The notes beneath the pieces are model-generated. The model saw only the letters and a program-made list of their open reading frames with translations, was not told the DNA's origin and did no database searches. 64,000 nt of DNA from Alphaproteobacteria bacterium (GTDB lineage Bacteria > Pseudomonadota > Gammaproteobacteria > Burkholderiales > Burkholderiaceae_C): contig JASGCM010000009.1 of the NCBI GenBank assembly GCA_030054175.1, positions 1 through 64,000 of the forward strand, in the 5' to 3' direction. Position numbers and translations under genes: made by a program. Positions 19,852 to 50,784 of the stretch are shown here, piece by piece. How positions within the stretch are numbered: position 1 is the first letter of the stretch; every line of letters begins with the position of its first letter.

Positions 19852-21494
19852 TCAGGGTTTGGAGCCGCTTTGCTCATGATGTTGCAAGGTCTTCAGCACC
19901 TGCAATGTGAGTTCGGCGTCTTCATGATACGGATTGACCTGCTTTTGCAGTTGGTCTGCGCCGCCGCTGGCCTGGGTCAGCATTTTCATTTGCAATACCA
20001 ACAGCCTTAGCTGGTCATAAGCCAAATCAGGGTGTGAGGTTGGGTCAATCACCACGGTTTTGATGCGTTGGCGCTCTTCGTTCTTTGATTCCTCAAAGCT
20101 GGCGCGAGCCTCTTCAGTCAGTCGTTTCACATCTTCGGCCGACAGGTGCAGGCGCTCAGTTTCGTCAGCAAAGATGGCGCGCGACTTGGCGTCGAGCTTG
20201 CCCTCGTGGTGATAGGCATGTAGAAGTTTGGCTTAAAAGCTTCGCGCTCAATGCGAAGCTGATCTGTGAAGGCCGAAGCCAGCAAGCCTGCCGGGATGGC
20301 GAAGATGCCTATCCCCATCAATGCCAAAACGACCGTCAATGCCCGACCCATGGGGGTGACGGGTGAGATATCGCCGTAGCCGACCGAGGCCAGGGTCACC
20401 ACCGCCCAGTAGATCGATTGTGGAATGTTCTCAAATTTATCGGGTTGTGCTTCATGCTCAAAGATATAACCCATGCTGGCGGTCAGCACCACCATCAGCA
20501 TCATCACAAACACTGCCGCCATGATCAACTGCCACACTCGACGCACCACGGTGTACAGGGTGCCCGCAGCAGTGGTGTAGCGGGTCAGTTTCAACAGGCG
20601 CGCCAGTCTGAAGACTCGCAAGAAACGCAGGTCCACTTGAAAGGGCAGCAAACGCTCGAGTAAAAAGGGCAGGATGGTGATCAGATCGATCAGCGCAGGC
20701 GCACTGCGGGCACAAGCCCAGCGGGGCATCCAGCGGTGTCGATACTTGGGGTTCTCCGGGGCGGCATACAAACGCGCCACATATTCAAGCGTCAAGATCG
20801 AGAACGACAGCATGTCGATGACATGGAATTCGAAGGCCATCGCCTGCTGAATCGAGTCGACCGATTCCAACACCACTGAAACGATCGAGACCATCACCCA
20901 AAAAATGATGAAGTTATCGACATAGGCGTGCAACTTGCCCGAGTGCCCCATGGGCTCCAGCAAGGCGTAGATCTTGGCCCTGAAACTGCGGTGTGCGTTC
21001 AGATGGTGAAATTCCTGCCAAGCTGGGACGGCATAGCGCGAGAGTTTCAAGATGCGCATCAGACGCAATAAGCGCAGAAAGCGCATCATTTCCAGGTCGA
21101 CCATGACCGCACTGGCGAAGTAAAACGGAGCGATGGCGATCAAGTCGATCAGGGCGTACGGACTCAGGGCGTAGCGCATGCGGGCCCATCGTTTGCCGGC
21201 GTATTCGGGGTCGTGCGCCGAGGCGCCCAGCCGCAGCAGGTATTCCAGTGTGAACACCGCCACACACAACACATCAAACAGATCCAGCCAGTCGCCCAGC
21301 GCGGCCTCGAGTGTGGGGTTGTGCTCGGCCGCGATGGCCACCGCGCTGAGGATGATCAACCAACCAATGGCGTTCTCCAGCCAGCGGGCATGACCTTGGG
21401 CGTGATTCAAGTTGAACAGCCAATGGTGCGTTTGAGCCCAGAAACCACGAGGCTTCAGGGTGTGGATTTCGACGGTGGAGTGTGAATCAGACAT
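19852..21494 (-). pseudogene. Voltage-gated-type K+ channel with two voltage-sensor domains; frameshifted near 20231
   Basis: Two S1-S4 units (S4: MMRFLRLLRLMRILKLSRY and LRFLRVFRLARLLKLTRY) then one pore with SVGYGD. The C-terminus continues in another frame as KLLHAYHHEGKLDAKSRAIFADETERLHLSAEDVKRLTEEA after a 1-nt loss. Confidence 0.8.
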
Positions 21495-21718
21495 GGCACG
21501 TGTCAATAGAAGCTGACATGCGCAGATTCGCACATGTGCCCAAGGATTTTCGGTCAATTGGTGGTTTTTGGAAACTGCATACTTGGCACGACGATTGCAA
21601 TCTTGAGAGTCACAGAGGGTTTTTGGGGTCACTTTGCACCATGTCGGGGGCAAAGCGCTTGAGGCGGGAAGGTTCGTGCACCAAAAAGCCCCAAACCCCT
21701 ACACACAAGGAGCGAGGC

Positions 21719-48499: not shown

Positions 48500-48709
48500 G
48501 TGAATCAATTGGTCGTATTTTATATTTTATTTTGTTTCTGTTTTGTAAAATTTAGCATGTATCCAATTGACCTTGTCGACTTTTAGATGCATCGTAAGGC
48601 CCATGTCCTGATGTAGGGGGCGAATCGGTTTGAATTCTGCTGCCATGGCAAATGGTGATGCGTTGGGGCGTCTCACTTGGTCTGACTGGGTTTTTCTGGC
48701 TTTCTGATC

Positions 48710-49174
48710 GTGGTCTTGGGCTGCGTGGTGTGGGTCGGCAGCTTGGCCTATTCCGAGGGGCAAAAGACCGAGCAAACCAAGCGTCACGGGGAGGCTTGGC
48801 TGGCTTGGTTGCAAGAATCAAACCCAGAGCGTGAAAAAGCAGAATTCGAACCCAGTGCCTGTTCCCGTCAGACTGGAAGAACCTGGGGGGGATGCTTGCA
48901 GGCATTAACCGACCAAGACCTCCCGCTGACACACCAAATCAACGCGTTCACCGGTCAGCCAGTGACATGGGCGCCCAAATGCGATTTTCAGGATCGCTCC
49001 TTGGTCGGTGTTTTGGTGCTGGAAAAACTCAACCCCACGCCCCCTGGATCGGCCGTCCCTTTCGTGGTCACGCCGATGTCGCCCAGTGACCCTATTGCCT
49101 CAGCCATGGGGGTGCGTTTGACGGTGTGCGACAAGGGGGCCGGCCCCATCAAGATCGGCGAAACCGAGTTCTGA
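48710..49174 (+). CDS. Hypothetical exported/membrane-anchored protein, start uncertain
   Basis: ORF with N-terminal hydrophobic stretch; in-frame TGA at 48683 limits extension. Confidence 0.4.
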   Translation: MVLGCVVWVGSLAYSEGQKTEQTKRHGEAWLAWLQESNPEREKAEFEPSACSRQTGRTWGGCLQALTDQDLPLTHQINAFTGQPVTWAPKCDFQDRSLVGVLVLEKLNPTPPGSAVPFVVTPMSPSDPIASAMGVRLTVCDKGAGPIKIGETEF

Positions 49175-49182
49175 AGACAGCC

Positions 49183-50784
49183 ATGTCAAATTCCGCTCAC
49201 ACGCCCAGGCCTGATGACGACGAGGACTCGCCCTTGAGCTTGCGAGCCAATCTGTACGCATGGTTGCTCGACCCGCACCGAGAAAACAATCTGCACCGGA
49301 GTTTTGAGCGTTGGATCGGTATTCTGATCGTTGCCAACTTGTTCGCCCTGATGTTCGAACATGTGCCGGCCATCTATGAACCTTATGCCCGCTGGTTCCA
49401 CTGGTTTGACGGATTTTCTGTGGTGATCTTCACCATCGAATACTTGCTCAGGCTGTATCTTTCTCCTGAGGATCCAGAATTTGCTCGGGACGGGCAACCG
49501 CATTGGAATTACGTGCGCAGTCCCTTTGCCATCATCGATTTGTTGGCCGTGGCGCCGTTCTATTTGCAAGCCTTTATCCCGTTGGATTTGCGCGTTTTGC
49601 GTTTCCTGCGCTTGTTGCGAATTTTGAAATTTTTTAGGGTCTTGGTGCCGGCTTGGCGCGAGTTCGTCGAATTGAATCGGGGACGCACCTTTCGCCAGAA
49701 GGTGCACGCCCTGGTTTTCCCCAGTGAGTTCGGGGGCGCGCTGCATCACCTGTTTGATGGTTTCATCGTCGTCTGGGTGGTGGTCTCTGTCGTGGCTGTG
49801 GTGCTCGAGTCGGTGCACAGCGTCCACTACGTACTGAATATCGAGTTCATCTTGCTCGACGCAATCGCAGTCAGCATCTTTACCCTGGAGTATTTGTTGC
49901 GACTGTATGCTTGTGTGGAGAGTCCGGGGTGTCGTCATGCGCTTTTGGGCCGAGTGAAGCATGCCAAATCGATGAGCGCAATGATCGACTTTCTGGCGAT
50001 CTTGCCCTTTTTTCTGGAAGTTTTCCTGCATCACCTGATCGACTTGCGCTTTTTGTGCGTATTTCGATTGTTGCGACTGTTCAAGTTGACCCGTTACACC
50101 GGTGCCACCAACACCCTAAGTTCCGTCGTTTAGCGTGAATGGCCGATTTTGACGGCGTCAGCGTTCGTCATGTGGTTGTTGGTCATCATGACTGCCAGTT
50201 TGGGTTATTTGTTTGAGCACGATGCCCAGCCAGACAAGTTCGAAAACATCCCACAATCGATTTACTGGGCCGTGATCACACTGGCTTCGGTGGGGTATGG
50301 CGATATATCACCCATCACGCCGATGGGGCGCATCATGACCATCATTCTGGCTTTGCTGGGCATTGGCATATTCGCCATCCCGGCAGCCTTGTTGTCTTCG
50401 GCCTTCAGCGACCAGTTGCGCATCGAGCGTGTGACGCTGAAAAACGAACTTTATGAAATGCTATCCGACGGGCATTTGGATGAAGAGGAAATAGCGCAGG
50501 TCAAGCGCGAAGCCAAGCGCTTGCACATTGCCGATGACGAGGTTCAGCGCTTGATCCTGCGAGTGCAAAAAGAACATGAATTGAAAGACGATGTATCGGT
50601 TCTGCCTCTGCACAAAATCGCCGCCGATCCAGCGCATGCGATGGAGTATTACAAAGAGACCTTGGCACGATTGCGCCAGCTGGGTTTGATGACATCCAGC
50701 GAGGACTTCGTCCGGATGGCCCAAGAGCAAGTCCGTCTGAGCGAGGACGAATGGCGCATCTGGCAGTCAATCAACATGCGCTGA
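49183..50784 (+). pseudogene. Second double-voltage-sensor K+ channel paralog, interrupted by in-frame TAG (50131-50133)
   Basis: S4 motifs LRVLRFLRLLRILKFFRVL and LRFLCVFRLLRLFKLTRYTG upstream, pore EHDAQPDKFENIPQSIYWAVITLASVGYGDISP downstream in the same frame. Confidence 0.8.

Follow-up and report, generated by a model that had tools for sequence, protein, structure and literature searches.

The window, that is, the whole stretch of 64 000 nucleotides that was analysed, contains two copies of a gene for a channel subunit in which two voltage-sensor domains (VSD1 and VSD2) precede one pore. Copy 1, a member of subfamily A, occupies 20127–21494 on the minus strand within an open reading frame of 20127–21653; its natural start is likely to be the ATG at 21492–21494. 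VSD1 (S1–S4, 21030–21389) ends in the S4 helix DLEMMRFLRLLRLMRILKLSRY (~21033–21098), which has six basic residues at i+3 spacing, and is joined to VSD2 by a conserved linker and pre-S1 helix (20934–21032; PAWxEF..NxxRSFRxKIYALLEP..GHSGKLH). VSD2 (20577–20933, with S4 DLRFLRVFRLARLLKLTR at ~20580–20633) is followed by an S4–S5 linker, S5, pore helix and S6 (20256–20576), and the selectivity filter SVGYGD (within ASVGYGD) lies at 20370–20387. The reading frame breaks at ~20231–20240, directly past S6, leaving the VSD-VSD-pore core whole and the last ~35 codons out of frame; the conserved cytosolic tail (19855–20233, minus strand) consequently sits in another frame, where it was identified against relatives. 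Copy 1 might still yield a channel without its tail.

An earlier note on this DNA had proposed the VSD-VSD-pore layout for 20230–21494 from quoted motifs, all of which are present in the 20127–21653 frame. Pfam places PF00520 (Ion_trans) in two stretches and PF07885 (Ion_trans_2) once, just as that note had predicted, and the topology comprises ten transmembrane (TM) helices and a pore helix; there are two VSDs rather than a single four-helix bundle, and the layout holds family-wide. No second pore domain of the kind that defines tandem 6TM channels and TPCs was found, with one PF07885 match and no pore between VSD1 and VSD2. In PDB sequence searches VSD1 by itself matched the voltage sensors of Cav3, KCNQ3, Kv4.2 and bacterial Nav, and the best matches of the VSD2-pore portion were Kv4, KCNQ and Kv2. 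Against NF040645 (hyperpolarization-activated voltage-gated K+ channel) the score was 59.6 bits, below the NCBIfam cut-off of 300 bits; the tail gave only a weak, below-threshold match to TerB/DUF533-like sequences.

Copy 2, of subfamily B, lies at 49183–50781 on the plus strand. An in-frame TAG (50131–50133) truncates it ahead of S5, dividing it into a VSD1-VSD2 frame (49183–50130) and a frame for the pore (ITLASVGYGDISP) and tail (50134–50781), with the register unchanged past the stop. In VSD2 a Cys replaces an S4 Arg (50056–50058); the position, second in the Arg ladder, is occupied by Arg in all 51 aligned relatives. Upstream at 48645–49171 (plus strand) is an accessory gene whose product combines a single TM helix with a domain containing four conserved Cys; its reading frame is interrupted within the stretch for that helix (48645–48704 in one frame, ~48698–49171 in another). 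A pseudogene is the probable reading of copy 2; the substitution, falling on an invariant site, favours genuine decay over sequence error. At E ≤ 0.001 the window's genome has no match besides copies 1 and 2.

The lesions in both copies and in the accessory gene could be taken to mean that the fusion itself is an artefact of faulty assembly or of frame errors in a single genome. The probability of this is negligible, and the idea was ruled out by homologues in many assemblies: the same layout recurs in at least ~98 distinct proteins, nearly all with open full-length frames, including members from one isolate, Limnohabitans sp. JirII-31, and from single-contig genomes of another family. The earlier note had pointed to a paralogue of matching layout at 49183, had argued from it that the architecture was not a one-off artefact, and had called for a family survey. 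The paralogue is there, albeit split by the TAG, and its argument was sound and if anything understated, given the size of the family and a 51-row alignment in which both S4 ladders are conserved. The note had hinted at the damage to copy 1 only by speaking of a repaired gene, and it had overlooked the accessory gene, the companion single-VSD channels with their altered filter and the precise lesions of both copies. VSD-VSD-pore channel subunits form a conserved family in bacteria.

A scan of genome contigs returned at least 80 loci with double-VSD homologues, and HMM domains occurred in the order VSD1-VSD2-pore in 117 ORFs of the loci examined, a count that takes in overlapping loci. Most genomes of the same genus carry at least one full-length homologue each. 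The hosts are Limnohabitans-type Comamonadaceae and members of further Burkholderiales families, and a divergent homologue sits on a Gemmobacter plasmid; nearly all listed loci are labelled Comamonadaceae, Limnohabitans, Rhodoferax, Comamonas, Burkholderiales or Betaproteobacteria. Apart from isolate JirII-31 they come almost entirely from metagenome-assembled genomes (MAGs), many named after lakes or rivers (Baikal, Lanier, Jr- and similar), which suggests a freshwater habitat for the hosts. Among 399 Burkholderiales genomes the double-VSD gene was found in five: the genome that contains the window, plus four belonging to three further families. Class- and phylum-wide searches (E ≤ 1e-30) returned, beyond the known doubles, single-VSD channels only, as did a search with the VSD1-VSD2 junction. 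The one case of plasmid carriage is the divergent double of the freshwater alphaproteobacterium Gemmobacter aquarius (L193:3707–5182, plus strand; annotated 'ion transporter'), which has fewer charges in the S4 of VSD1. Two further loci were recorded in passing: an incomplete double-VSD channel from a short IMG/VR contig that may be host DNA (L194:1–1431, plus strand), and a tandem pair of slightly overlapping double-VSD genes, the second with the filter TTLSSIGYGD (L178:2048–5304, plus strand).

Across the 51 aligned proteins the S4 Arg/Lys residues, the S2 Glu and the S3 Asp vary little or not at all, in VSD1 as in VSD2. Over 30 pairs, dN/dS was practically equal in VSD1 (0.035) and VSD2 (0.036), lower in the pore (0.016) and higher in the tail (0.068); these values are rough since synonymous changes approach saturation in many pairs. 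With its charges kept and its dN/dS equal to that of VSD2, the extra sensor is retained for a function. The filter of nearly all double proteins is TLAS[VI]GYGD, in agreement with the K+ channel pattern T-x-x-[VI]-G-[YF]-G-D; and the Arg-ladder S1–S4 and S5-P-S6 pore of the voltage-gated ion channel superfamily (PF00520) are both present. The double-VSD protein is predicted to carry a voltage-gated K+ current.

VSDs that lack a pore domain can conduct, as does Hv1, and VSD1 could in principle be a permeation path of its own (for protons or cations under voltage control) fused to a K+ channel. We regard this as highly improbable: the conserved charges of VSD1 are the same as those of VSD2, with no extra conserved acidic residue within S1, and its best PDB matches are Cav, Kv and Nav sensors.

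Comparison with known channels places the unusual feature at the front of the protein. To our knowledge, each pore quarter of the voltage-gated channels described so far has a single sensor, and the canonical 6TM Kv subunit (KvAP type) has one VSD per pore, whereas here two VSDs precede one pore. The double protein resembles canonical 6TM Kv channels (KvAP, Kv1/2/4, KCNQ) in VSD2, S4–S5 linker, S5, pore helix, GYGD filter and S6, but adds a complete front VSD, has a different cytosolic tail, and has a long VSD1 S4-linker that connects to VSD2 and not to a pore. Tandem 6TM channels likewise have two VSDs per chain, although there each VSD is part of a complete 6TM repeat with its own pore domain, which makes two pore domains against one here. 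Duplicated modules in one chain are also found in TPCs (two 6TM repeats) and in fungal TOK channels (one VSD and two pores), neither of which has two VSDs and one pore. No description of a VSD-VSD-pore topology, and no published family possessing it, was found in the open-access literature; the one-TM partner likewise appears undescribed.

The closest relatives are single-VSD channels of ~400 amino acids (L173, L179, L181), which have a canonical filter, a similar tail and a VSD2-pore that groups with VSD2 of the doubles, but no VSD1 and no accessory gene found adjoining. A tree built from 64 VSDs placed the VSD1 domains of the double proteins in one clade (100/95) and their VSD2 domains in another (99/95), and VSD2 clustered with single-VSD channels of 396–406 amino acids sharing its pore type. 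As the two clades are separate and VSD2 groups with single-VSD channels, the simplest reading is that VSD1 was gained once, ahead of a single-VSD channel. Recent internal duplication of one VSD is unsupported, given the separate clades and the position of VSD2 beside its single-VSD sisters; an AU test did not reject a VSD1+VSD2 clade such as internal duplication would produce (p-AU 0.18). Adjacent single-VSD genes were also considered as the source of VSD1; their HMM scores are VSD1-like, but the tree does not join them to it.

An AlphaFold2 (AF2) monomer model of the intact JirII-31 protein (mean pLDDT 80.5) gave the order S1–S4, S1'–S4', linker, S5, pore helix, S6 and helical tail, with a long VSD1 S4 (148–176) and a short VSD2 S4 accompanied by the S4–S5 linker. 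This deeper model was used in place of an earlier one of the window protein (23 rows), in which the pore was poor. Its top Foldseek matches were exclusively Kv/KCNQ chains, with full-length TMq of 0.2–0.3; with such low full-length scores and a monomer-only model, the arrangement of the domains is uncertain.

The reading that we consider best as a whole, and somewhat probable, is that of a ten-TM voltage-gated K+ channel subunit gated by VSD2, modulated by VSD1 and served by an accessory partner. The predicted subunit consists of VSD1, the conserved linker, VSD2, one K+ pore and a helical cytosolic tail, and most likely assembles as a tetrameric K+ channel; eight sensors would surround one pore only if it homotetramerises. 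By homology, VSD2 would act on S5 through an ordinary S4–S5 linker and gate the pore in the usual way. VSD1 would be a second working sensor with no pore of its own. Its S4 is predicted to continue as one long helix into the linker before VSD2, so that its movement would reach the pore indirectly, and such movement may shift or sharpen voltage dependence.

The putative partner is encoded by an accessory ORF directly upstream of ~88 of the 98 double genes listed, most commonly with its stop 9 bp from the ATG. The product (e.g. L118:2315–2887, plus strand) is ~150–300 amino acids long and has a single TM helix and a Cys-rich, probably periplasmic domain in which four Cys are conserved. Pfam and NCBIfam gave no match for the accessory family, and the PDB yielded nothing meaningful. 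Among the Burkholderiales genomes the accessory and the double-VSD gene were found in exactly the same five of 399, for which the chance is ~1 in 10^11 if genomes are taken as independent (two of the five share a genus). From this linkage and exact co-occurrence, the accessory is most likely a dedicated channel partner, resembling a beta subunit, that would dock on or act through VSD1. KCNE and Nav beta, small one-TM partners with an outer domain, offer an analogy; they differ from the accessory, which belongs to a family without recognised matches and whose interaction with the channel is putative.

Alternatively, VSD1 could serve as a docking platform, for recruitment of the accessory or for channel clustering, its charges being kept just for folding stability. 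Such a role would fit a domain with no direct tie to a pore, and the accessory does go with VSD1-bearing genes, being absent from the genome (G011) in which only a VSD1-less 405-amino-acid single-VSD sister was found. Against it, the gating charges and counter-charges of VSD1 are nearly as conserved as those of VSD2, with equal dN/dS, and subfamily A, including copy 1, retains VSD1 while mostly having no recognisable accessory; we therefore think this role unlikely, though worth serious consideration. The rarity of the accessory in subfamily A also means that the partner is not essential everywhere. At one locus a subfamily A double gene is immediately preceded by a degraded accessory remnant (L177:3205–3639, minus strand), which suggests that the accessory was lost in this subfamily.

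In 43 of the 80 loci listed, two single-VSD channel genes follow the double gene in the same direction with short gaps, the usual arrangement in Limnohabitans. The filters of these two channels, consistently TITS-GYGN and TIIS-GWGN, lack one residue relative to TLASVGYGD of the double protein, and the pair lacks the S6 proline (e.g. L118:4611–6496, plus strand). Separately, one 683-amino-acid ORF has ~350 residues ahead of a single-VSD channel (L139:916–2964, minus strand). Under the modulating-sensor reading, the two short-filter subunits of the Limnohabitans operon may co-assemble with the double protein or act alongside it. That its three channel genes instead form one heteromeric channel, with an asymmetric pore and fewer than eight sensors, would accord with the gene order and the consistent filters, but is quite doubtful: in other Burkholderiales the accessory and double are present and the companion singles absent, and two genomes (L163, L164) have the companion pair with no double gene nearby. 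The fullest picture, in which an eight-sensor tetramer with four sensors not wired to the pore is combined with the one-TM accessory and the altered-filter Limnohabitans subunits in a heteromer from one operon, is put forward tentatively, as possible rather than probable.

A conserved natural subunit with two sensors that look functional raises the questions of what a sensor without a pore of its own can contribute to gating and of how voltage sensitivity depends on the number of sensors. If the operon does encode a dedicated accessory, this bacterial channel would offer a simple system in which to study beta subunits, and companion filters that are one residue short bear on the tolerance of selectivity filters to change. 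The family is also a pointer towards electrical physiology in freshwater bacteria that have received little study.
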